Translations under genes and position numbers: made by a program | The notes under the pieces: model-generated | The model's database searches: none | What the model saw: only the letters and a program-made list of their open reading frames with translations | Told to the model about the DNA's origin: nothing | In this document: positions 4 through 63,881 of the stretch, in pieces | Layout of the letters: each line of letters opens with the position of its first letter | Position numbering within the stretch: the stretch's first letter is position 1 | DNA from: Sporohalobacter salinus | GTDB lineage: Bacteria; Bacillota; Halanaerobiia; Halobacteroidales; Acetohalobiaceae | Reading direction: 5' to 3' | Assembly: GCF_016908635.1 (NCBI RefSeq) | Contig: NZ_JAFBEG010000004.1 | Span: forward strand, 62,001 to 126,000 | DNA length: 64,000 nt

Positions 4-969
4 ATGGATGTTATATTTATGGGAACTCCTGATTTTTCAGTACCGACACTTAAACGATTAATTGAAGAAGATTTTACTGATGTAATAGGAGTTGTTACCC
101 AGCCGGACCGACCTAGAGGTAGGGGGCAGAAGATGCACCCATCTCCCGTTAAAGAAGAAGCCCTAAAAGAGGATTTAACCTTATTACAGCCTGAAGATAT
201 TAATAACTCAGATTCAGTTACTAAACTAAAAGAATTAAATCCTGATGTAATTGTAGTTATTGCTTATGGTCAGATTTTGGATAAGGAGATCCTTGATTTA
301 CCTAAATTAGGATGCATTAATGTTCATGCTTCATTATTGCCTAAGTATCGCGGTTCTGGCCCTCTACATCGAGTGATTATTAATGGAGAAGAAGAAACTG
401 GAATTACTACAATGTATATGGAAGAAGGCTTAGATATTGGTGATATAATTTTAAAAGAAAAAGTTGAGATTACTTCTGAAGAGACTGTTGGTGAATTACA
501 TGATAGATTAGCTGTTTTAGGAGCTGAGGTCTTGCTTGAAACTTTAGAGTTAATTAAGGCTGGAGAAGCTAATCGTATTTCGCAGGACGATAGAAAAGCT
601 ACTTATGCCCAAAAGATTACTAAAGAAGAAGGGCGAATTGATTGGACAGCAAGTGCTCAAGAGATTAAAAACTTAATTCGAGGGATGAACCCTTGGCCAG
701 GTGCTTATACTTTCTATAATGATAATAGACTTAAAGTCTGGAATAGTAGGATATATGATTCTAAAACAAAGCCCTCTGTAATCCCCGGGACAGTAGTTGA
801 TATTGAAAATGAATCTGGTTTTATAGTTCAGAGTGGAGAAGGACAGCTATTGATTAGTGAAGTTCAGCCAGAGAATAAACAGCGAATGTCGGCTAATGAT
901 TTTTTGCGGGGATATGATTTACAAGAGGGGACTTTATTAACTACGGACCAGGATCAGAATGGAGATTAA
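4..969 (+). CDS. fmt: methionyl-tRNA formyltransferase
   Basis: Transfers a formyl group from 10-formyl-tetrahydrofolate to Met-tRNAfMet for translation initiation in the cytoplasm. The N-terminus has the family's FMGTPDFSVPTL start, and the formyl-transferase core contains the NVHASLLPKYRG-type motif near residue 105. A C-terminal OB-like domain follows. At 321 aa it is close to the usual 310-320 aa. The ATG at 4 fits the family N-terminus, but any ribosome binding site lies outside the window. It is the first visible gene of a run continuing through DUF116, YugP-like and RsmB, an order common in Firmicutes, where def and priA often lie upstream. Confidence 0.97.
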   Translation: MDVIFMGTPDFSVPTLKRLIEEDFTDVIGVVTQPDRPRGRGQKMHPSPVKEEALKEDLTLLQPEDINNSDSVTKLKELNPDVIVVIAYGQILDKEILDLPKLGCINVHASLLPKYRGSGPLHRVIINGEEETGITTMYMEEGLDIGDIILKEKVEITSEETVGELHDRLAVLGAEVLLETLELIKAGEANRISQDDRKATYAQKITKEEGRIDWTASAQEIKNLIRGMNPWPGAYTFYNDNRLKVWNSRIYDSKTKPSVIPGTVVDIENESGFIVQSGEGQLLISEVQPENKQRMSANDFLRGYDLQEGTLLTTDQDQNGD

Positions 970-970
970 G

Positions 971-1732
971 ATGCAGCAAGATAAAGAGAATGCTAGAGAC
1001 CAAAAGCTATTTTTAAGTCTACTGGTATTATCAGTAATAATTCTGGGCATTATAGTAGGTAGTATCTGGTATTTAAATCTGACTAATTTTAATTATATTA
1101 GCCGAAGTATTCTATTGATTGTAGGAATAATAATTACTTTATTTAGTTTGGTTGTGGTTTTAGGAATAATAGGTATTTTGATCATTTTACAGAAGAAAAA
1201 AACTGTTTCCTTCTTTTATGTACCAATTAGAATTGTAATTTCTTATCTTTTTCCCTTAGTTATTTATTTAGGTAAGATATTGGGATTTGATAAATTAGAA
1301 ATCAAAAATTCTTTTATTGAGGTTAATAATCAATTAGTTAAGCCGGATAGATTAAAGGTTGCTCCGGAAAAGATATTAATGCTATTGCCACACTGTATTC
1401 AAAAAGCTGATTGTCAATATAGGATAACGAATGACCTTGATAACTGTCGCCGTTGTGGTCAATGTCAAGTTGATGATATTCTAAAGCTAAAGGAGAAATA
1501 TGGTTTTAAAGCAGTGGTAGCTACCGGTGGGACTTTAGCTCGGAGAAAAATTAAAGAAGTACAGCCGAAGGCTATTATTGCTGTAGCTTGCGAACGGGAT
1601 TTAACTAGTGGAATTCAGGATACTTATCCTCTGCCAGTGATTGGAGTGATTAATATTCGGCCGGAAGGACCTTGTATTAATACTTTAGTTAATATCGAAG
1701 AATTAGAAAAGGCTATTAATAAACTATTATAA
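971..1732 (+). CDS. DUF116 membrane protein with Cys-rich cytosolic domain
   Basis: Conserved protein of unknown function, DUF116 family (253 aa). Three hydrophobic segments fill the first ~105 residues. A soluble domain with clustered cysteines follows (LPHCIQKADC, then NCRRCGQC), which could hold a metal or an Fe-S cluster; that is inference. An in-frame ATG also exists at 959, but GGAG at 961-964 sits 6 nt before the ATG at 971, so 971 is preferred. It follows fmt by one base and is very probably cotranscribed. DUF116 is often found between fmt and rsmB in Firmicutes, but its job is not known. Confidence 0.85.
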   Translation: MQQDKENARDQKLFLSLLVLSVIILGIIVGSIWYLNLTNFNYISRSILLIVGIIITLFSLVVVLGIIGILIILQKKKTVSFFYVPIRIVISYLFPLVIYLGKILGFDKLEIKNSFIEVNNQLVKPDRLKVAPEKILMLLPHCIQKADCQYRITNDLDNCRRCGQCQVDDILKLKEKYGFKAVVATGGTLARRKIKEVQPKAIIAVACERDLTSGIQDTYPLPVIGVINIRPEGPCINTLVNIEELEKAINKLL

Positions 1733-1745
1733 AGGAGGGGTTAAT

Positions 1746-2441
1746 ATGTTTTTTCCATTTTTTGATCCGACGTTTTTTATTTTAATACCTGCTTTATTGA
1801 TTTCAATGTATGCTCAGTATAAAGTTAAGAGTACTTTCAATAAATATTTAAATGTAGCAGCTAGTAGAGGCTATACTGGAGCAGAAGTAGCGCGAGATAT
1901 TTTACAGCAGAAAGGAATTCGGAATGTAACAATAGAGAGAGCCCAGGAAAGCTTGAGTGATCATTATGATCCACGTAGTAAAACAGTTCGTTTATCACCA
2001 GAAGTATATAATGGTAGATCGGTGGCTTCCTTAGGAGTAGCAGCTCATGAGACCGGGCATGCTGTTCAGCATGCTGTAGAGTATTTGCCTTTGAATATTA
2101 GGCATACTTTATTGCCAGTGGCTAATTTTGGTTCGAAGTTAGGACTACCATTAGGAATTTTTGGCTTTTTCTTCTTTAGATCAGAGTTTATGGTCCATTT
2201 AGGACTAATTATTTTTGCTGGTGCTGTTTTATTTCAGATTGTGACTTTGCCAGTGGAGTTTAATGCTAGTGCTCGGGCTATCGATTTTCTTCGGAATGGT
2301 GATTATCTTGCTCGTGATGAAGTAAAGCCAGCTAAGAAGGTATTGAATGCAGCAGCTTTAACTTATGTAGCAGCAGTATTAGTTTCTATAGGTCATATGT
2401 TACGATTGTTGATGATGGCTAGTATGCTGGATGATGATTAA
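1746..2441 (+). CDS. YugP-like zinc metallopeptidase (Zn_peptidase_2)
   Basis: Membrane-bound zinc-dependent protease-like protein of the YugP/Zn_peptidase_2 family, 231 aa. It has an N-terminal membrane anchor (about residues 8-25). The zincin motif HETGH lies at residues 101-105, giving two zinc-ligand histidines and the catalytic glutamate. Two or three further hydrophobic segments lie in the C-terminal half. AAAGGAGGGG lies 6-7 nt upstream of the ATG. Substrates are unknown; membrane protein quality control is a common guess. It sits in the fmt-rsmB operon and overlaps the next gene by 11 nt, suggesting coupled translation. Confidence 0.9.
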   Translation: MFFPFFDPTFFILIPALLISMYAQYKVKSTFNKYLNVAASRGYTGAEVARDILQQKGIRNVTIERAQESLSDHYDPRSKTVRLSPEVYNGRSVASLGVAAHETGHAVQHAVEYLPLNIRHTLLPVANFGSKLGLPLGIFGFFFFRSEFMVHLGLIIFAGAVLFQIVTLPVEFNASARAIDFLRNGDYLARDEVKPAKKVLNAAALTYVAAVLVSIGHMLRLLMMASMLDDD

Positions 2442-3117
2442 TATGCCTTTATTATTATTTTTTTTATTAATTGTAATTTTATTTCCGGCATTGTTGATTC
2501 CTGTTGGTAGTTTAATTATGCTATTAATCTTATTTATTCCTTTTAAGTTTACTCTTGATTCATTAATTACTTTAATAACTGCTCCTGAACAGATTATCAA
2601 GATTGCTGTTAATCCTAAATTAAGACGAAACCATGCTTTAGAACATGCTACTATTAATGTATTGGAAGAATCATATGGGCATCAACATTTATCAGGTTTA
2701 GCTAAAGAAAATGGTTTTTTAATTCAGGGGGCTATAAATCCAATAGTATTACAGCAGGCTGCCGAAGAGGGACTCCATCGATTAAAAGCAGGTGAAACAG
2801 ATTTAGTCATTCATGATAGATGTGGTACTAGTTTAATGATGGGAAATCTTATATCAGCTCTGATTTTCTTTGGACTATTATTGTCAACTGGGAACTTTAC
2901 TATCATATATGTATTAATTGCTGTTATATTTTCTAGGTTGCTGGGGCCTACAATAGGTAAATATGCTCAAAAATTATTAACTACTTCGCCTGATGTAGAA
3001 GGAATGGTGATTGATGGAATTAGATCTGAAACTAATTTTAATAATTTCTTTGGGATTAATATAAGGAATCAACCCCAGAAATTATTTGTTAAAACAGAAA
3101 GATTAGAAGTCTATTGA
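2431..3117 (+). CDS. DUF6391-like membrane protein
   Basis: Conserved protein of unknown function, 228 aa. It begins with a very hydrophobic segment of about 45 residues. A conserved-looking block follows, NPKLRRNHALEHATINVLEE, whose HALEHATI core recalls the DUF6391 family. Another pair of hydrophobic segments lies near residues 140-175. Candidate start codons are the ATGs at 2431, 2434 and 2443; all lie inside or just after the end of the YugP-like gene. The HxxEH pattern could bind metal, but that is speculation. The operon context links it to the upstream protease. Confidence 0.7.
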   Translation: MMINMPLLLFFLLIVILFPALLIPVGSLIMLLILFIPFKFTLDSLITLITAPEQIIKIAVNPKLRRNHALEHATINVLEESYGHQHLSGLAKENGFLIQGAINPIVLQQAAEEGLHRLKAGETDLVIHDRCGTSLMMGNLISALIFFGLLLSTGNFTIIYVLIAVIFSRLLGPTIGKYAQKLLTTSPDVEGMVIDGIRSETNFNNFFGINIRNQPQKLFVKTERLEVY

Positions 3118-3133
3118 TTGGAGGCTTAAAATA

Positions 3134-4480
3134 GTGACAAAGAATGGACGTCAGGTTGCTTTAGAGGCGGTGTATAGGATAAATGAGGAAGGAGCGTACT
3201 CTAATTTAGTACTAAACCATCTCTTTAAAAAGTATAATTTACCAGAGCAAGATAAAGGTTTAGCTACTGAATTAATTTATGGTAGTTTGCGAATGAGAAA
3301 TCATTTAGACTGGATTTTAAATCAGTTTGCAGATCGAAGTATAAATAAAATGGATAGCTGGACGAGGAATATATTGCGGTTGGGGTTATATCAGATTCGG
3401 TTTCTTGACAGCATTCCTGATGCTGTAGCCTGTAATGAAACAGTAGAATTAGCTAAGGAATATCAACATAGTGGAGCTGCAAATTTTGTTAATGGAGTTT
3501 TGCGTAATATTCTTCGTAATTTAGATAAAGTTGAGTTTCCTCAATTAGATGATAATCCTGTTCAGCATATTAGATATAAATATTCATTTCCTCAATGGAT
3601 GGTAGAAACTTGGGTAAAAAGATACGGAATAGAATTAACAATTGATATTTGTTCTGCTTTTAATCAAGTACCTCGTAAGATTATTAGACAGAATCAGCTT
3701 AAAATAACGGCTGAAGAATTAAAGACAGAGTTAGTTTCAGCTGGCATAGAGATAGAGTCTATTTCGGAGATTCCTCAAGCTTTCAAAGTGACCAATTCTT
3801 CTTCTCTTTTTCAATCGGATTTATTTACAGCTGGATATTTTCAGATTCAGGGCTTGGCTTCTATTCTGACCGGCCATATTATAATGCCAGAGCCTGGAGA
3901 TAGAGTTTTGGACTTATGTAGTGCTCCTGGCGGTAAGACGACTCATTTGGCTGAGTTTATGGCCAATCAAGGGGAGATAATAGCTAATGATTTGCATGAG
4001 GATAAGCTAGAATTGATTGAAAGAAATTGTGAACGGTTAGGAATTGAGATAGTTAATACTCAGTCTGGTGACGGACGCAGTTTAGAGTTCAAGAATAAGT
4101 TTGATAAAATTTTAGTTGATGCTCCTTGTTCTGGATTAGGGATGATAGCTAAAAAACCGGAAATCAAATGGCAGAAGAAGCCGCAGGATAGCAAGTCTTT
4201 AGCTAAACTACAACTTGAACTTTTAAATAATGCCAGCGAATTTTTAAAGTCAGGTGGAGAGTTAATTTATAGTACTTGTACTATTGCTAAAGAAGAGAAT
4301 CTAGAAGTAATAAATAAATTTTTAGCTCAAAATTTAGCTTTTGAATTAGTTGATTTAAGCAGTCAGGCTGAAAGGTATGGAATTGGTTCGGATTTTATCT
4401 TAGAAGGAGCTATTCGATTATTACCTACCTGGCAGGAGAATGAGGGATTCTTTATTGCTAAGTTGAGGAAAAAAGTTTAA
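3134..4480 (+). CDS. rsmB: 16S rRNA (cytosine-967-C5) methyltransferase RsmB
   Basis: Methylates C967 of 16S rRNA using S-adenosylmethionine. The first ~140 residues form a NusB-like RNA-binding domain. The remainder is the class I methyltransferase domain with the SAM loop LDLCSAPGGKTTHLAE near residue 255. The two conserved cysteines are present: DAPCSGLG (general acid/base region) and YSTCTI (catalytic nucleophile). At 448 aa the length is normal. The start is GTG with GGAGG about 9 nt upstream. It ends the operon that begins with fmt; a promoter for the next gene follows. Confidence 0.96.
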   Translation: MTKNGRQVALEAVYRINEEGAYSNLVLNHLFKKYNLPEQDKGLATELIYGSLRMRNHLDWILNQFADRSINKMDSWTRNILRLGLYQIRFLDSIPDAVACNETVELAKEYQHSGAANFVNGVLRNILRNLDKVEFPQLDDNPVQHIRYKYSFPQWMVETWVKRYGIELTIDICSAFNQVPRKIIRQNQLKITAEELKTELVSAGIEIESISEIPQAFKVTNSSSLFQSDLFTAGYFQIQGLASILTGHIIMPEPGDRVLDLCSAPGGKTTHLAEFMANQGEIIANDLHEDKLELIERNCERLGIEIVNTQSGDGRSLEFKNKFDKILVDAPCSGLGMIAKKPEIKWQKKPQDSKSLAKLQLELLNNASEFLKSGGELIYSTCTIAKEENLEVINKFLAQNLAFELVDLSSQAERYGIGSDFILEGAIRLLPTWQENEGFFIAKLRKKV

Positions 4481-4488
4481 CTTGTAGC

Positions 4489-4516
4489 TTGACATTTAAG
4501 TGAAGTAGTATATCAT
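4489..4516 (+). promoter_or_regulatory. sigma-A type promoter for rlmN operon
   Basis: TTGACA (4489-4494), a 16-nt spacer, then TATCAT (4511-4516), immediately after rsmB. It would drive rlmN-stp-pknB-rsgA-rpe. The -35 box is a perfect consensus match, but no transcription start is known. Confidence 0.65.
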
Positions 4517-4573
4517 ATTTATATAGATGGAATAGTAATTATCAACTGAAAAGGTGGTAGAAAGGAAGATAGA

Positions 4574-5626
4574 ATGGCTACTAAAGTAGATCTTTCTTCT
4601 TTTAATTTAACTGAATTAGAAGATTTTGTGAGTGATGAATTAGGTGAAGCTTCTTTTAGAGCTAAACAGATAATGAATTGGATTTATAAGCAGGGGGTTG
4701 TTGATTTTGAAGAAATGACTAATTTAAGTCAAGATTTGCGCAGTAGATTACAGGGTAAGGCCTATATTAATAAATTTATAGAAATAACTAGAGCAGAATC
4801 GAAAGATGGTACAGTTAAGTTTTTATTCAAGTTGAGGGATAATAAAGAGATTGAGACAGTCTTTTTACCATATCAAGATGGAAGAAATAGTATCTGTGTA
4901 TCTACTCAAGTAGGTTGTGGTATGGGTTGTAATTTCTGTGCAACTGGACAGCAGGGACTGGAACGTAATTTAACTACTGGAGAGATTATAAGTCAGATTT
5001 TAGAGGTTCAGCGGTTAATGAGTTCGAGTGGTTATAATTCTTCCTTGATAACTAATATAGTTTTTATGGGTATGGGTGAACCGCTGGCGAATTATGATAA
5101 TCTTTTGAAGGCAATTAAGATCTTAAATAGTAATGAAACCTTAAATATTTCTATGCGAAGGATAACAGTTTCTACTTGTGGTTTAGTACCTCAGATTAAA
5201 AGGCTAGCTGATGAAGAACTGCAGTTAGTTTTGGCTATTTCACTACATGCTGCTGAGGATGAAATTCGAGACAATATGATGCCAATTAATAAACGTTATC
5301 CCCTAGAAGAATTAATTACTGCCTGTGAGTATTATTTAGAAAGGACGAATAGACGGATTACGTTTGAGTATGCTTTGATAGATGGTGTTAATAATCGACA
5401 TGAGGATGCTAAAAAGCTGGCTCAATTATTGTCAGGATTGCTCTGTCATGTTAATTTAATTCCCATTAATCCAGTGAAGGATTTAAGGCTTTCAAGGCCT
5501 AATAGAGAAGATACTAAAGAATTTAAAAAGATATTGAATCAGAATAATATTCAGGCTACTGTACGTCAGGAAAGAGGTAAGGATATTGAAGCAGCTTGTG
5601 GGCAGCTTAGGACTGAAAATAATTAG
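4574..5626 (+). CDS. rlmN: 23S rRNA/tRNA adenine-C2 methyltransferase RlmN
   Basis: Radical-SAM enzyme that methylates A2503 of 23S rRNA and A37 of some tRNAs. The radical SAM cluster motif CxxxCxxC is seen as CGMGCNFC near residue 115. The family's C-terminal conserved cysteine is present in AACGQL near residue 343, and a further Cys lies in STCGLVP. At 350 aa the length is typical. The gene opens the rlmN-stp-pknB-rsgA-rpe cluster conserved across Firmicutes and has its own TTGACA/TATCAT promoter 60-85 nt upstream. Confidence 0.96.
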   Translation: MATKVDLSSFNLTELEDFVSDELGEASFRAKQIMNWIYKQGVVDFEEMTNLSQDLRSRLQGKAYINKFIEITRAESKDGTVKFLFKLRDNKEIETVFLPYQDGRNSICVSTQVGCGMGCNFCATGQQGLERNLTTGEIISQILEVQRLMSSSGYNSSLITNIVFMGMGEPLANYDNLLKAIKILNSNETLNISMRRITVSTCGLVPQIKRLADEELQLVLAISLHAAEDEIRDNMMPINKRYPLEELITACEYYLERTNRRITFEYALIDGVNNRHEDAKKLAQLLSGLLCHVNLIPINPVKDLRLSRPNREDTKEFKKILNQNNIQATVRQERGKDIEAACGQLRTENN

Positions 5627-5652
5627 CTTGAAGCAATATGTGGGGTGATCTA

Positions 5653-6363
5653 ATGAGATCTGGATTCAAATCCGATTGTGGTAGAGTAAGGGACCAGAAT
5701 GAAGATAATTATCTTCAGATGGAACAGAATGGCCTTAAGATATTTGCAGTAGCTGATGGAATGGGTGGCCATAATGCTGGTGAAGTAGCTAGTTCAATAG
5801 CTATTGAACTACTGCAGGATTATAATTTCAGCTCAGATAAGATACCTGGTGACTTAATTAAAGTTATTGAATCTATCAATATTGAGATTAGAGATAAAGC
5901 GGAGAAAAATACTGATTATCAAGGAATGGGTACTACTTTGACAGTTGCCGTTTTGGATGATAATCAAGTATACATTGGTCATGTGGGTGATAGTCGAGCT
6001 TATCTGTTACGCGATGGAGAATTTAATCAGTTAACTGAAGACCATTCATTGGTAAATAAGTTAGTTAAGACTGGTAAGATAACTGCTGAAGAAGCGAGAG
6101 ACCATCCGCAGAGTAATGTATTATTACAGGCTTTAGGAACTGAAAGCCAGGTAGATGTAGATGTAATTGAATTAGAAGCTAAGTCTGGAGATCTTTTTTT
6201 ATTATGTAGTGATGGATTGAATGTTATGTTAAGTGATAAAGAGATTAAGGATATTTTGTTAAAAGAAGATAGTTTGCAAGATAAAGCTGATAGATTGGTT
6301 CGATTGGCTAAAGAATTCGGTGGGTATGATAATATAACTATTAATCTCTTTGCAGTTAGCTAA
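5653..6363 (+). CDS. stp: PP2C-type serine/threonine phosphatase Stp (PrpC)
   Basis: Protein phosphatase that reverses phosphorylation by the neighbouring kinase PknB. The PP2C signatures are visible: RDQNEDN near the N-terminus, VADGMGGH with metal-binding aspartate, GHVGDSRAYLLR, and a C-terminal GGYDNIT. An in-frame ATG exists at 5638, but GGGGTGAT at 5642-5649 places the ribosome binding site before the ATG at 5653, giving MRSGFKSDCG, the expected start of the family (236 aa). It lies 20 nt upstream of pknB. The pair usually controls cell-wall synthesis and growth state. Confidence 0.95.
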   Translation: MRSGFKSDCGRVRDQNEDNYLQMEQNGLKIFAVADGMGGHNAGEVASSIAIELLQDYNFSSDKIPGDLIKVIESINIEIRDKAEKNTDYQGMGTTLTVAVLDDNQVYIGHVGDSRAYLLRDGEFNQLTEDHSLVNKLVKTGKITAEEARDHPQSNVLLQALGTESQVDVDVIELEAKSGDLFLLCSDGLNVMLSDKEIKDILLKEDSLQDKADRLVRLAKEFGGYDNITINLFAVS

Positions 6364-6382
6364 AATTATAGAGGTGACTTGA

Positions 6383-8389
6383 ATGATTGGTAAATGCTTA
6401 AATAATCGTTACCAGATTGAAGATGAAATTGGCGCAGGCGGAATGTCTTTAGTTTATGAGGCAACGGATAAGCTCTTGAACCGCAAGGTAGCAGTGAAAG
6501 TGTTGCGGCCGCAGTTTGCTACTGATAAAGAATTTATAGAGAGGTTTAAACGGGAAGCACAAGCAGTAGCTAATTTTACTCATCCTAATATTGTAAATAT
6601 TTTTGATATAGGAGAAGATAATGGAACTCATTATATTGTAATGGAGAATGTTCAAGGGGAAACTCTGAAAGATAGAATTGAGAAACAGGGGAATTTGAGC
6701 CCTGTATCTGCTTTAGAGATTACTAAACAGGTATGTAATGCTTTAGTTACAGCTCATCGAAAGCAGATTGTTCATTGCGATATTAAACCAGGGAATATTC
6801 TGATAGCATCTGGTGGAACAGTTAAATTAACTGATTTTGGTATTGCTCGGGCTGTGACTTCTTCGTCGACTTTAAAGCAGACGGATACAGTAATAGGTTC
6901 AGCTGCTTACTTTTCACCGGAACAGGCTAGGGGAGATAGACTGGATAATAGGACTGATATTTATTCACTGGGAATTGTTCTTTATGAAATGTTGACAGGA
7001 GAGGTTCCTTTTACCGGAGATACTCCTGTATCTGTAGCTTTAAAACATATTAAAGAAGATCCTAAACCTCCAACGGAGTTTGATCATACTATTCCAGGGG
7101 AAGTTGAGAATATAATTTTAAAGGCGGTCAATAAGGAACCAAAAAAGCGCTATACTAATGTTAAAGAGATGTTGATTGATCTTAAAGAAACATTAGAAGA
7201 CTTAGAGAAGACAGAAAAAGATAGCTTAGATGAGTCTGAATCTGATATTGATAAAGATGATAAGACTATTGTGATGTCTAAAAATGACTATCCTACAAAA
7301 CGGATATCAGACTACAAAAAAACAAAACAGATATCAAATTTTAAAGATAATGAATCAATAAAAGAAGAATCAGTTACGAGGACGAAAAATGAAGAAATAG
7401 AAGAGGTGGGTTATACGCAGCCTCAAAAGTCTAGTTTCTGGAATCGAAATCGAAGTTTAATGATTTGGTTTTTAGTATTAGCTTTAATTACTGGTGGTTT
7501 AGTTTTTAGTTATTATCAGGTGACTAATTATTTGGAAGTACCTGTTGTTGAAGTGCCTAATTTGGTTGATAAAGATTTAAAAACTGCTAGACAGATTTTA
7601 GAAAAAAAAGGACTACATCTTAAAGTTTATAATCGCAATTATAATAATAATGTTCCTGAAGATCATATTATTTCACATCATCCTGAATCTGGCAAAAAGG
7701 TTAAGAAGAATCGAAAAATAAGTGTAGTTGTCAGCAAGGGAGCAAAGTTAACTAAAATTCCTGATGTGATAGGAGAACGACTGCGGGAAGCTAAAATTTT
7801 AATTGAAGAAGCAGATTTAGAAGTAGGTGAGGTCAACTATGTTTTTAGTGATCGAATTAAAAAAGGGTTAATTATTGACCAGTCTCCTAGTTCTAAAAAG
7901 GAAGTTAAAGTAGATACTAAAGTTGATTTAATTATAAGTAAAGGAAAAGAGGCTGAAGCCATTGAAGCTCCTAAGTTAGTTGGTTTAAGTGAAAAGAATG
8001 CTAAAAGTAAGCTGCGAAATCTTAATTTGATTATTGGTAAAGTTAAGTATAAAAAGAGTCTAAATTACTTTGAAGGTAAAGTGATGAAACAGGAACCTAA
8101 GCCTGGAAGTGAGATAGTACCTGGATCTCCTGTTAATTTAGTAATTAGTAAAGGAATTAGAAATCCTTATAATTCTGAAGTTCATGAATTTAAAATTAGA
8201 GTTAATATTAATCCGGGAGAAAAGGACCAACGCGTGAAGATAATTGTTCGTGATGATAATGGACGGCGGATTATTTATAATCAAATTCATCATCCAGGAG
8301 ATTTAGTAGATAAAAGGATTATTAGTGTTGGTTCAACAGTAGTAAAAGTATATATTAATGATAAATTGGTTCGCGAACAGAGATTATAA
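6383..8389 (+). CDS. pknB: PASTA-domain serine/threonine kinase PknB/PrkC
   Basis: Membrane receptor kinase sensing cell-wall fragments. The kinase domain (about 10-270) has a glycine loop GAGGMS, VAVKVL lysine, and DFG. The catalytic loop reads HCDIKPGN, so the usual Arg of HRD is Cys, making this a non-RD kinase. A charged linker (270-355) precedes a transmembrane helix (~360-380) and three PASTA repeats (~390-590), each ending near VVSKG or ISKG. A ~65-residue C-terminal extension of unknown fold follows. It pairs with stp upstream. PrkC of Bacillus has three PASTA repeats plus an Ig-like tail, so the layout is similar. Confidence 0.95.
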   Translation: MIGKCLNNRYQIEDEIGAGGMSLVYEATDKLLNRKVAVKVLRPQFATDKEFIERFKREAQAVANFTHPNIVNIFDIGEDNGTHYIVMENVQGETLKDRIEKQGNLSPVSALEITKQVCNALVTAHRKQIVHCDIKPGNILIASGGTVKLTDFGIARAVTSSSTLKQTDTVIGSAAYFSPEQARGDRLDNRTDIYSLGIVLYEMLTGEVPFTGDTPVSVALKHIKEDPKPPTEFDHTIPGEVENIILKAVNKEPKKRYTNVKEMLIDLKETLEDLEKTEKDSLDESESDIDKDDKTIVMSKNDYPTKRISDYKKTKQISNFKDNESIKEESVTRTKNEEIEEVGYTQPQKSSFWNRNRSLMIWFLVLALITGGLVFSYYQVTNYLEVPVVEVPNLVDKDLKTARQILEKKGLHLKVYNRNYNNNVPEDHIISHHPESGKKVKKNRKISVVVSKGAKLTKIPDVIGERLREAKILIEEADLEVGEVNYVFSDRIKKGLIIDQSPSSKKEVKVDTKVDLIISKGKEAEAIEAPKLVGLSEKNAKSKLRNLNLIIGKVKYKKSLNYFEGKVMKQEPKPGSEIVPGSPVNLVISKGIRNPYNSEVHEFKIRVNINPGEKDQRVKIIVRDDNGRRIIYNQIHHPGDLVDKRIISVGSTVVKVYINDKLVREQRL

Positions 8390-9976: not shown

Positions 9977-10001
9977 GGTTTAATATAGAGAATTGAATAT
10001 T

Positions 10002-10130
10002 ATGCTTCGGGATTAGGTGAAATTCCTAACCGGCGGTGTTATCTTTAATTTTAAGATTAAGTCCGCGAACCTATAATGGTTGATTTGGTGAGACTCCAAA
10101 ACCGACAGTAAAGTCTGGATGGGAGAAAGT
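10002..10130 (+). ncRNA. FMN riboswitch (RFN element)
   Basis: Binds flavin mononucleotide and represses the riboflavin genes downstream. The hallmark conserved blocks appear in order: CTTCGGGATTAGGTG, ATTCCTAACCGGCGGT, AGTCCGCGA, TTGGTGAGACTCCAAAACCG, ACAGTAAAGTCTGGATGGGAGA. The spacing and pairing (GGATTAGG with CCTAAC; TTTGG with CCAAA) fit the six-helix RFN fold. It precedes ribD by about 100 nt with a terminator hairpin in between, so control is probably by transcription termination. Confidence 0.97.
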
Positions 10131-10148
10131 AAGTTTTTAAGTTTAGAT

Positions 10149-60207: not shown

Positions 60208-60974
60208 ATGATGGACTATTCTCCTTTTAAATCTAAAGTTTATGATGCTTGGTTTGATTTTTCATACAAGGTAAAGTAGGAACTAATGCTATAGGTACGG
60301 CTTTAAAGGTTGATAAGCCGTTGCAGGTGGTGGAGAAGAGCATTATTGTAAGGAATATCATACTTGGACGTGTTCTGCTGTTCCTATACATGACAAAAAT
60401 GGTAAATTGATAGGTGTTTTAGATATGTCTGGGCCTTGTGAACTAGTTCATCCACACACTTTAGGAATAGTTGTAGCAGCAGTGAAAGCAATTGAAAATC
60501 ATTTTATTAATCAGAATAAAGAAATAACAGGTGTAGTAAGTACTTTTAAGGAGTTAGAAGCTGTTCAAAATCTGGTTAATAGAATGGTTGGATCACAAGC
60601 TAAATTTACTTTTGGAGATATAATTGGTCAGAGTACAGAATTACAAGAAGCAAAGCGACTGTCTCGTTTAGCAAGTAGGAATTTTTCGAATATTCTGTTA
60701 TTAGGGGAAAGTGGAATTAGAAAAGATTTATTTTTTAGATTAAATAATTTCAGATAGAGCTTTGAAATTATTACAGAAATATGACTGGCCGGGTAATATT
60801 CGGGAGTTACAAAATATTATTCAAAGAGCAATGGTATTGACAGAAGATAGTAATCAAATTACTGTTAATGAATTACCAGAAAAATTAAAACACGGATTTG
60901 AAGTTGAAAATGTTGAAAGCCAAAAAGTTCCTTTGATGCCATTAGAAGAGGTTGAAAAGAAGCTTATTAAATAA
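60208..60974 (+). pseudogene. broken sigma-54-dependent activator (AcoR/NifA type)
   Basis: Remnant of a GAF/AAA+ enhancer-binding regulator. The ATG at 60208 (AAAGGGGC upstream) opens MMDYSPFKSKVYDAW and soon stops. GAF fragments VGTNAIGTALKVDKP and HTWTCSAVPIHDKNG follow in other frames. DIIGQSTELQEAK leads to LLGESGI, which jumps to RKDLFFRLNNF, so most of the AAA+ core (Walker A tail to sensor I) is deleted. After another frame break YDWPGNIREL appears, and the protein ends LEEVEKKLIK before the Fis-type HTH. An intact form would probably have controlled the AOR gene downstream. Confidence 0.85.
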
Positions 60975-60997
60975 GTAGGATATGTTTGATTTATAGA

Positions 60998-61104
60998 TTT
61001 TACCTCCGAATATTTTTTCTAAGGATAAAAATTCTATCTAAGAAAAAATATCGATGGGGATTTAGAGAAATCTAAATGCCTCCCGTATTTGGAAAGGAGT
61101 AAAA
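60998..61104 (+). ncRNA. Moco/Tuco riboswitch candidate upstream of AOR
   Basis: Conserved-looking blocks CCTCCGA (61003-61009), AAGGATA (61021-61027), GCCTCCCG (61078-61085) and GGAAAGGAG (61091-61099) match the molybdenum-cofactor RNA motif as I remember it. Pairing supports it: TTTTA-CTCC with GGAG-TAAAA closes the element (60998-61007 with 61096-61104, one bulge). TATTTTTTCT pairs with AGAAAAAATA (61011-61020 with 61041-61050), and ATTTAGA-GAAA-TCTAAAT (61060-61077) is a GNRA-capped stem. It lies 23 nt before an AOR whose cofactor is tungsto/molybdopterin. A Covariance-model search would decide. Confidence 0.72.
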
Positions 61105-61127
61105 TAAATAAAGGAGGGGATAATAGT

Positions 61128-62858
61128 ATGAAAATTTATCGAGTGAACATGACTGAAGGTAAAGTTACTACTGAAGATGTGAAAGAGGATTATGCAGCTT
61201 TAGGAGGGCGAGGGCTTACATCTCAAATTATTGCAGATGAGGTGAAGCCAAATTGTAATCCAATAGGAGCCAAGAATAAATTAGTAATTGCTCCTGGATT
61301 ATTATCTGGAACTAATGCACCGAGCTCTGGTCGATTATCTGTTGGGACTAAAAGCCCACTAACGGGTGGAATTAAAGAATCTAATGCTGGTGGTACTGCA
61401 GCTCAAAAGTTGGCTAAATTAGGTGTGAAAGCTATTGTGGTTGAAGGTAAACCTAAAGATGGGAAGTTTTACACTATGATGGTGAATAAGAATGGGGTCA
61501 AGTTAGAAGATTCATCGGCTGATTTATTAGGTAAAGGCAATTATGAAGTGATGGAAAAGATGCAAAAAGAATTAGGAGAAGATGTTTCTGTAATGTCTAT
61601 TGGTCAGGCTGGTGAGTATAAGCTACAGTCTGCTTCTATTGCGGTGTCTGACCCTGAAGGTCGTCCTACTCGACATTGTGGACGTGGTGGTACTGGTGCT
61701 GTAATGGGTTCTAAAGGACTTAAAACAATAGTAATTGATGATACTGATGCTCCAGGAGTTTCTATAGTTGATAAGGATGCTTTCAAAAAATCTGCTCGTG
61801 CGTTAGCTAAAGCTTTATTAGATCATCCAGTATGTGGAGAGGGATTACCGGAGTATGGAACATCAATTTTAATTAATATTTTAAATGAATCCGGTGGATT
61901 ACCAACTCAAAACTTTCGGAGGGGAAGATTTGAAGGAGCAGATGAGATTAGTGGTGAAACAATAGCTGAAGTTATTAATGAGCGTGGGGGCAATACGACT
62001 CATGCTTGTCATCCAGGTTGTGTTATGAGATGTTCTCAGATTTATAATGATAAAGATGGTAATTATTTAACTGGTGGTTTTGAATATGAAACAATTTGGG
62101 GCTTTGGTGCTAATTCTGAAGTTGATGATATAGATGCTATTGCTAAGATGGATCGTATTTGTGATGATGTTGGAGTAGATACTATTGAAATGGCTACTAC
62201 TATAGGTGTTGCTATGGAAGCAGGTGTTATTGAGTTTGGTGATGCTGAGGGAGCAATTGATCTTTTAAAAGAAATAGGTAAAGGTACACCTATTGGTAGA
62301 ATTATTGGAAATGGGACTGGATTTACTGCTAAAGCCTTTGGTGTTACTCGGGTTCCAGTAGTTAAGAATCAAGGTATTCCAGCTTATGACCCACGTGCTG
62401 TTAAAGGTGTAGGTGTAACTTATGCAACGAGTACCATGGGAGCAGATCATACAGCTGGTTATGCTGTAACATCTAATATTCTTGATATTGGTGGTACTGT
62501 AGATCCATTAGATAAAGAAGGGCAAATTGATTTGTCGAGAGATCTACAGATAGCTACTGCTGCAGTAGATAGTACAGGGCTTTGCGTTTTTGCTGCATTT
62601 GCAATTTTAGATAATGACGAAGCTTTACCGGCTGTAGTAGATATGCTTAATGCACAGTATGGTTTAGAATTAGAGGTTGGTGATGTTACTGAATTAGGTA
62701 AATCTATTCTTAAAGTTGAAAGAGATTTCAATACTAGAGCTGGTTTTGATAATACTGATGATCGGTTACCTGATTTCTTTGTAGAAGAAGAGTGCTCACC
62801 TTATGATGTTAAATTTGATATAACTGATAAGGAACTTGATGAAGTTTATGACTTCTAG
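61128..62858 (+). CDS. aor: aldehyde:ferredoxin oxidoreductase family tungstoenzyme
   Basis: 576-aa AOR-family enzyme that oxidises aldehydes (or reduces acids) with a tungsten or molybdenum bis-pterin and one [4Fe-4S] cluster. N-terminal ALGGRGLTSQI and the APGLLSGTNAPSSGRLSVGTK region are typical. Cluster cysteines are in HACHPGCVMRC (~294-300) and STGLCVFAAF (~483). The in-frame ATG at 61089 lies inside the riboswitch; AAAGGAGGGG before ATG 61128 sets the start. MoaD-like and E1-like genes follow. The exact aldehyde substrate cannot be told. Confidence 0.93.
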   Translation: MKIYRVNMTEGKVTTEDVKEDYAALGGRGLTSQIIADEVKPNCNPIGAKNKLVIAPGLLSGTNAPSSGRLSVGTKSPLTGGIKESNAGGTAAQKLAKLGVKAIVVEGKPKDGKFYTMMVNKNGVKLEDSSADLLGKGNYEVMEKMQKELGEDVSVMSIGQAGEYKLQSASIAVSDPEGRPTRHCGRGGTGAVMGSKGLKTIVIDDTDAPGVSIVDKDAFKKSARALAKALLDHPVCGEGLPEYGTSILINILNESGGLPTQNFRRGRFEGADEISGETIAEVINERGGNTTHACHPGCVMRCSQIYNDKDGNYLTGGFEYETIWGFGANSEVDDIDAIAKMDRICDDVGVDTIEMATTIGVAMEAGVIEFGDAEGAIDLLKEIGKGTPIGRIIGNGTGFTAKAFGVTRVPVVKNQGIPAYDPRAVKGVGVTYATSTMGADHTAGYAVTSNILDIGGTVDPLDKEGQIDLSRDLQIATAAVDSTGLCVFAAFAILDNDEALPAVVDMLNAQYGLELEVGDVTELGKSILKVERDFNTRAGFDNTDDRLPDFFVEEECSPYDVKFDITDKELDEVYDF

Positions 62859-62897
62859 TTGTAAGTGATTAGATAATAGCAATAGGGGATGATGAGG

Positions 62898-63131
62898 ATG
62901 GAAGTAACAGTAAGATTATTTGCTACCTTAAAAGATTTGCTGCCAGAGGATAAGAAAAAGATTTCGATAGAGTTAGAAGCAGGTAGTACAGTTAATGAGG
63001 TAATTGAATATTTTGAGATTCCTCAGGAAAAACCTTTGATTATTAAAGTTAATGGAAGACATGGGTCGAAAAGTACAATATTAGAAGATAGGGATAGAGT
63101 TGGTATCTTTCCTCCAGTAGGGGGAGGATAA
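62898..63131 (+). CDS. MoaD/ThiS ubiquitin-fold protein
   Basis: 77-aa sulfur-carrier-type protein. It starts MEVTVRLFATLKDLLPED and ends VGIFPPVGGG, with the C-terminal Gly-Gly that is adenylated and thiocarboxylated in this family. Next to AOR it probably takes part in pterin-cofactor (tungstopterin) synthesis, though dedicated roles for AOR-linked copies are not settled. ATGs at 62889 and 62892 are also in frame; AGGGG (62884-62888) is best spaced for 62898. Confidence 0.9.
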   Translation: MEVTVRLFATLKDLLPEDKKKISIELEAGSTVNEVIEYFEIPQEKPLIIKVNGRHGSKSTILEDRDRVGIFPPVGGG

Positions 63132-63212: not shown

Positions 63213-63881
63213 ATGGATTTCTTACAAAGACAGAAATTAATGTTTAGTAAAGAAGAATTAAAAGAAATTTCTGGATTAACTGTTTTAATAGCTGGAGCAG
63301 GAGGATTAGGAACTCATCAAGTTATAGAATTACAGAGAGCTGGGGTTAAAAAAATATATTTAATAGATTCTGATAAAATTGAAATATCTAATTTAAATCG
63401 TCAAGTTTTATATGGAAGAGATGATATAGGAGAATTTAAGGCAATTAAGGCTAAAGAAATTCTCGATGATTTTAAATTAGGAACGAAAATTGTAGCTATT
63501 ACTAAAAGAGTTACTGAAGATACAGAAATTCCTTCAGATGTTGATTTGATTTTTGATGCCTTGGATAATTTTGAAAGCAGATATGAATTAGAAAAGTTAG
63601 CTGCTAAATATAAATTGCCGTTGATTCATGGTGGAGTTAGTTCTTGGTATGGTCAAATAACAACTATTATACCTGATAAAACTTCTAGCTTAAAGGAAAT
63701 AATTGGCTCGGAACAATCTAAGGCTAAGGAAATTCCAGTTTTTTCACCAGTAGTTTCCGTTATTGCATCTTTACAAGTTATTGAAGGATTTAAGGTTATA
63801 TTAAATAAAGAAGATACATTAATAAATAAGTTATTAATAATTGATTTAAGTGATTATTCTTTAAGTGAAATTGAGATATAG
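63213..63881 (+). CDS. ThiF/MoeB/HesA-family E1-like protein lacking cysteine
   Basis: 222-aa adenylating-enzyme homologue. It has the ATP loop AGAGGLGTHQVIELQRAG (~33), IDSDKIEISNLNRQVLYG with the conserved Asp/Asn/Arg (~57), and FDALDNFESRYELEKLA (~118). It contains no cysteine at all, so both the zinc CxxC pairs of MoeB/ThiF and any catalytic Cys are absent; IPVFSPVVSVIASLQ replaces the usual GVLGPVVG region. GGAGG precedes ATG 63213 (a TTG at 63198 is also in frame). It probably adenylates the MoaD-like partner upstream. Confidence 0.85.
   Translation: MDFLQRQKLMFSKEELKEISGLTVLIAGAGGLGTHQVIELQRAGVKKIYLIDSDKIEISNLNRQVLYGRDDIGEFKAIKAKEILDDFKLGTKIVAITKRVTEDTEIPSDVDLIFDALDNFESRYELEKLAAKYKLPLIHGGVSSWYGQITTIIPDKTSSLKEIIGSEQSKAKEIPVFSPVVSVIASLQVIEGFKVILNKEDTLINKLLIIDLSDYSLSEIEI

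Follow-up and report, generated by a model that had tools for sequence, protein, structure and literature searches.

A Moco-type RNA ahead of an AOR operon

Does a cofactor-sensing riboswitch control the aldehyde:ferredoxin oxidoreductase (AOR) operon of Sporohalobacter salinus and, if so, which cofactor would it read, and would binding turn the operon on or off? The question is raised by an RNA leader in the stretch of 64,000 nucleotides analysed here (the window). Searching the window from end to end with cmscan for members of 4227 Rfam families returned two matches, an FMN riboswitch at 10000-10134 (104.8 bits) and RF01055 (Molybdenum) at 60991-61115 on the + strand, the latter with 62.4 bits against a gathering cut-off of 36 (E 1.3e-12) and an alignment that spans the full model (1-135) with the positions of helix P3 deleted. 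An earlier note, made from the letters alone, had read a Moco RNA motif here from a closing helix and a GNRA-capped stem, and had named a covariance-model search as the check; a score so far above the cut-off bears it out. No other RF01055 match was found in the 2.68 Mb genome. The window RNA is almost certainly a member of the Moco/tungsten riboswitch family, and an ordinary, well-supported one in the expected gene context.

The span that the note had given, 60998-61104, coincides exactly with the paired aptamer. In P1, CUCC (61004-61007) pairs with GGAG (61096-61099), C61003 at its border is bulged, and an outer A/U extension, seen in the sequence and in MFE folding with P1 forced, joins UUUUA (60998-61002) to UAAAA (61100-61104); by eye, no other AOR leader has such an extension. 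The RF01055 alignment and the covariation described below also support the P2 hairpin (61010-61051), with a tetraloop-receptor-like internal loop; the P4 hairpin (61057-61081), which is the GNRA stem of the note and is capped by GAAA at 61067-61070; and P5 (CC/GG) with conserved core (61082-61092). Thus P1, P2, P4, P5 and the core CUCCGA/GGAAAGG are all present, and P3 is absent. The receptor reads CUAAG/UAAG, a form also present in relatives; the canonical receptor for the GNRA loop of RF01055 is CCUAAG/UAUGG.

The match ends 12 nt before the start codon of AOR (61128-62858, +; Pfam AFOR_N E 4.9e-65, AFOR_C E 1.1e-80), the only AFOR_N gene of the genome. The 23 nt that had been counted from 61104 to the ATG at 61128 are correct, as is the position upstream of a MoaD-like sulfur carrier gene (62889-63131, +; Pfam ThiS E 1.4e-13, NCBIfam moaD_arch below cut-off), which is followed by a ThiF/MoeB-like adenylyltransferase gene (63213-63881, +; Pfam ThiF E 2.6e-51).

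For comparison, RF01055 was found in 44 of 61 related genomes, and all 83 of the matches listed were retrieved. AOR is the first gene after 19 of these 83 class RNAs. The other first genes, identified from one or two representatives per group, encode TupA-like, WtpA-like, ModA, MoeA, MobB-like and sulfite-oxidase-like proteins, ydhY-type Fe-S proteins and sigma-54 regulators; the TupA matches lie below the NCBI cut-off, and the MobB-like representative is matchless, its name being our own reading. The 19 AOR leaders, all of the same class (Halanaerobiia), were aligned, and covariation among orthologous leaders, the second check proposed in the note, proved strong. Across 26 pairs, 90.5% of the cells are paired, where shuffles give 76.1 +/- 1.1 and slid structures 34-52%; the share of cells paired is favoured because the structure was partly chosen on the same alignment; the covariation score is 0.465 against 0.175 in shuffles, and neither measure was attained in any of 500 shuffles. 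Changes on both sides occur in 15 of the 26 pairs, 10 of the 11 in P2 among them. That the RF01055 match is due to chance, for which nothing was found in favour, has a negligible probability and is already refuted by its E value of 1.3e-12 and by the 0/500 shuffles.

Tungsten or molybdenum cofactor

Since 2008 the case for tungsten-specific Moco riboswitches has been based on gene associations. The family was described by Regulski et al. in that year, with a subtype lacking P3 that was linked to the tungsten cofactor (PMC2408646). The question of subtype, which the earlier note had considered informative, is in structural terms settled, since the window RNA has that P3-less form. The absence of a P3 stem and the downstream AOR are features of this subtype, and copies of RF01055 in relatives precede genes for TupA- and WtpA-like tungstate-binding proteins. 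The ligand is therefore quite likely to be the tungsten rather than the molybdenum cofactor. It is rather unlikely, yet worth weighing, that the same aptamer and platform respond to the molybdenum cofactor or to both cofactors. In E. coli the loss of P3 alone left the specificity unchanged (PMC2408646), and the genome encodes MoaA as well as a molybdopterin-family oxidoreductase frame with one in-frame TGA (L304, G000 contig 13, 63303-64574), possibly a selenocysteine formate dehydrogenase to judge from the sequence. Against this stand the P3-less form together with the AOR context, which is the published correlate of tungsten (PMC2408646), and the copies ahead of the tungstate-binding proteins.

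Direction of control

The element proposed to be switched is the Shine-Dalgarno sequence (SD) of AOR, GGAGG at 61113-61117 (+), 10 nt 5' of the ATG and recognized from sequence and folding. CUCC of P1, together with C61003, forms a 5-bp run complementary to it, so that the border C, bulged in the aptamer, would be a partner of the SD in the alternative fold. Without cofactor, the P1 5' strand CCUCC would pair with the SD, a sequestration that in the window would be aided by the CCUCCC strand of P4/P5; with cofactor bound, the 5' strand would be locked in P1, the SD freed and AOR translated. As AOR protein is useless without W-pyranopterin, it would be made only when the cofactor is available. 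The same aptamer class would close tungstate and molybdate uptake by means of terminators. The RNA is probably, on this proposal, a translational ON switch of the P3-less (tungsten-cofactor) type for the AOR operon; we infer translation as the controlled step, as well as the identity of the ligand and the direction in vivo.

The border base sets the AOR leaders apart from the other class RNAs (four of the 83 were dropped from this analysis, as their P1 was not parsed). A C immediately precedes the P1 core in 19/19 AOR leaders versus 4/60 others (Fisher 1e-14), and P1 is extended at this base in 0/19 versus 54/60 (Fisher 2e-13). Given the kinship among the 19 leaders, these values do not reflect independent events, and in at least two of the unextended non-AOR rows the 5' motif was mis-located. 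A border C cannot extend P1 but matches base five of GGAGG; of the four other RNAs with such a C, two precede sigma-54 regulator genes and likewise have a GGAGG nearby. GGAGG occurs within 60 nt in 18 of the 19 AOR leaders, and in these 18 the anti-SD run measures 5-9 bp (5 in the window), although complementarity to GGAGG holds for any CUCC. The G008 lineage shows a compensating change within the run (x7-y7, T-A to C-G).

Folding with ViennaRNA, which leaves out tertiary contacts and the ligand, leaves the SD largely base-paired in 19/19 leaders when P1 is absent, and less so in all 19 when P1 is forced; in the window, SD pairing is 0.87-0.97 without P1 and 0.29 with it. When 5' flanks from non-AOR RNAs were swapped in, the mean SD pairing by the 5' strand dropped from 0.90 to 0.40, which in these models indicates that the sequestration is not automatic, except in the window, whose own flank and the donor ones behave alike (SD pairing by the 5' strand 0.15-0.41 depending on the flank, with 44% of the donor flanks doing as well as the native one). 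Within its group, the window copy is predicted to have the weakest anti-SD pairing, and its P1 carries the extra A/U extension, which also counts against the proposal; because its native and donor flanks are alike, its ON sign leans on the relatives and on geometry. Among further leaders, 10 of the 11 informative ones shift in the same direction under forced P1 (L215 is uninformative); the distant leader L211 shifts the opposite way, and L206, from Tepidimicrobium, hardly shifts. The P1 of L206 is CCAAUCC/GGAUUUGG and its SD region is GGGGGGAUU, so that P1 3' strand and SD are alike in a different sequence, although little SD release is seen on folding.

Could the switch instead be OFF, the bound aptamer lying so near the SD that it hinders the ribosome and represses AOR when cofactor is plentiful, as in E. 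coli moaA? The only family member tested does repress (PMC2408646), and aptamer and SD are separated by a short stretch, with P1 ending 8-13 nt before the SD. Nevertheless, the SD lies outside P1 here, unlike in E. coli: 61113-61117 is 13 nt past the P1 core (61096-61099) and 8 nt past the outer extension, which argues against a platform with the SD inside P1. Together with the release of the SD by forced P1 in every one of the 19 leaders, and with the little physiological sense of repressing the user of a cofactor while that cofactor is present, this makes the OFF reading improbable, and the sign of the window riboswitch is likely to be ON.

Neighbourhood and integrity of the leader

Directly 5' of the leader lies the relic of a sigma-54-dependent activator gene (60279-60971, +), recognized by tblastn with two intact relatives and by an AAA_lid_14 fragment; its frame is broken and its AAA domain largely gone. 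Might the leader be decaying as well, leaving the AOR operon uncontrolled or unexpressed? The relic itself would fit such decay, as would the promoter scans: the sigma-54 consensus has two matches in the window, which is chance level, and none near the leader, and a sigma-70-like scan of the window gave sites at chance level only. However, the aptamer core and its pairing are kept, and the frames of AOR, moaD and thiF are intact, which makes decay very improbable; the activator relic is context and no part of the ON switch proposed here. A second, decayed aptamer 5' of the relic was looked for with model R1 (see below) with filters off, and the known copy alone scored.

The intact activator relatives, in G001 and G002, themselves sit 3' of Moco-type RNAs. 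In G002, a gene that resembles iron-type alcohol dehydrogenases (named by eye) stands between regulator and AOR, and on its contig 27 (L034, about 689-7975) three Moco-type RNAs are found within 7.3 kb, before modA, a sigma-54 regulator and AOR. On the other side of the operon, the sequence from 63931 onward, which continues in L084, holds a second MoaD-like frame and then, past the window end, fragments resembling pyruvate dehydrogenase components.

Terminator platforms in AOR and other leaders

The class RNAs were supplemented with 27 variant-model loci, 39 phylum RNAs, which favour high scores because they were hand-picked, one per genome, from the best 150 matches listed, and 15 RNAs situated at AOR genes or close to them, which came from a scan of named genomes and a pattern search. 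Intrinsic terminators were called by an automatic folding scan, in which 162 of 164 items were classified (VL163 and PL300, without a recognisable core, were dropped); the counts are given uncorrected. Where AOR lies downstream within the retrieved stretch (63 RNAs), 35 have no terminator, 23 have one that shares the P1 3' strand and 5 have one further downstream, versus 11, 5 and 83 among the 99 RNAs without AOR. When the AOR match lies less than 300 nt from the aptamer (44 RNAs, the window included), the figures are 33, 11 and 0, and most of the 33 terminator-free leaders have a gap to the start codon too short for a terminator. Between the window aptamer and AOR, the scan found no intrinsic terminator.

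A terminator that shares the P1 3' strand excludes the aptamer and, therefore, ligand should prevent termination (ON). Conversely, a separate terminator whose 5' arm can pair with the P1 3' strand should terminate in the ligand-bound state (OFF); visual inspection pointed to such an arm in some leaders of transporter and mobB-like genes, for example G034:C1:509410. Thus, the AOR platforms, be they SD release or terminators on the P1 3' strand, predict ON, and those of tungstate and molybdate transporters OFF. When the five overlap calls without AOR were reviewed by eye, H55, H56, H60 and H69 resembled separate downstream terminators and PL299 was ambiguous; H14 and H33, called overlap and with AOR later in the operon, resembled antiterminators. 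In five ydhY-type operons (L052, L055, L015, L062 and L046), with a Tat Fe-S gene some 0.8-0.9 kb ahead of the AOR homologue, the platform appears OFF or ambiguous, unlike those of other AOR genes. In L092 and L093, the AOR leaders of G270 and G361, the 5' strand of P1, AAAAGACUC, shows complementarity to GAGUCUUUUU further downstream, possibly a third kind of platform.

GCAAAGG variants of the aptamer

Three weak RF01055 matches with a common altered core were used to build model R1. Since R1 picks up numerous ordinary Moco RNAs too, the number of its matches does not tell how many variants there are; the 27 variant-model loci were chosen for a short match, irrespective of the gene, and L163, L167 and L169, which have no GCAAAGG core, were excluded from the 28 variants aligned (L152-L162, L164-L166, L168, L170-L178, L253, L033, L044 and L082, of which L253 came from an AOR-based search). 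In these, GCAAAGG replaces GGAAAGG, the P5 pair is flipped (G-C in 28/28), and the loops are GUAA, GCAA, GCGA or GUGA, closed by A-U in 28/28 and never GAAA (0/28); no P2 receptor was recognised in them by eye. A GAGUAAU sequence considered as a new loop fold was rejected, as it amounts to a GUAA tetraloop with an A-U closing pair. AOR lies downstream of 25 of the 28; the contigs of G246 and G013 end too early, and G001, of the same genus as the window, is a real exception: the idea that its variant RNA leads AOR was rejected, because a sigma-54 regulator follows and no AOR turned up in the 13 kb retrieved. RF01055 finds 7 of 12 variants tested at E 0.01, 6 of them above gathering. From sequence, the variant would be an AOR-dedicated aptamer partly missed by Rfam, and a candidate for altered ligand specificity. 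The window RNA, with core GGAAAGG and loop GAAA, is not a variant; the R1 search at E 1e-4 gave no match in its genome, and a local R1 run found only the known copy (31.6 bits).

A broader picture, to be held tentatively and somewhat less probable than its opposite, is that across anaerobic bacteria AOR genes stand under ON switches of the Moco class that are gated by cofactor and come in at least two designs, one in which the P1 5' strand releases the SD and one in which a terminator is nested in the 3' strand of P1; that these lineages also employ this aptamer as an OFF switch for metal uptake; and that the GCAAAGG subclass is dedicated to AOR and may read the AOR-type W-pyranopterin.

Implications and comparison with known systems

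The family and its P3-less subtype are known; the ON sign of AOR control, which the sequences suggest, is undescribed in the literature searched. If true, a cofactor riboswitch would gate the synthesis of the very apoenzyme that needs that cofactor. An ON platform at AOR would offer a positive read-out, expression rising with tungstate, which is an easier test than repression; ON and OFF leaders of a single aptamer, set side by side, would constitute a natural experiment in the reversal of expression platforms, and an AOR-dedicated variant would be a candidate for changed ligand specificity.

PMC2408646 already includes terminators and members with a GCAA loop and no receptor, and PMC9943018 speaks of MOCO switches that act in antisense on genes for the metabolism of the Mo and W cofactors; the riboswitch in PMC7653027 is unrelated. 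The literature searches and the available portions of PMC5317091, PMC9495176, PMC9971707, PMC11477304, PMC7266159, PMC3766115, PMC12121620, PMC13390414 and PMC9943018 yielded neither an ON switch for AOR nor a GCAAAGG-type variant, and those of PMC2408646 describe no ON switch for AOR; this absence is weak evidence, since few subscription papers were covered.

The window RNA resembles the P3-lacking subtype of PMC2408646, as far as it is available, in P1/P2/P4/P5, GAAA, the CUCCGA and GGAAAGG core, the lack of P3 and the downstream AOR, and differs from the description there (OFF in E. coli, terminators) in a platform predicted to be ON by SD release. With the E. coli moaA riboswitch, an OFF switch in the same source, it shares the aptamer family and, as proposed here, translational control near the start codon; unlike the window RNA, the E. 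coli one has P3, holds the SD inside P1 and represses. The Halanaerobiia copies before tupA-, wtpA-, modA-, moeA- and mobB-like genes belong to the same aptamer family and bacterial class as the window RNA, but they mostly have downstream terminators and a P1 extended at the border base, and are predicted to be OFF. The GCAAAGG variant, finally, shares with the window RNA the AOR target and the predicted ON sign, and departs from it in the flipped P5, in a GNRA loop other than GAAA and in reaching ON mostly by terminator overlap.
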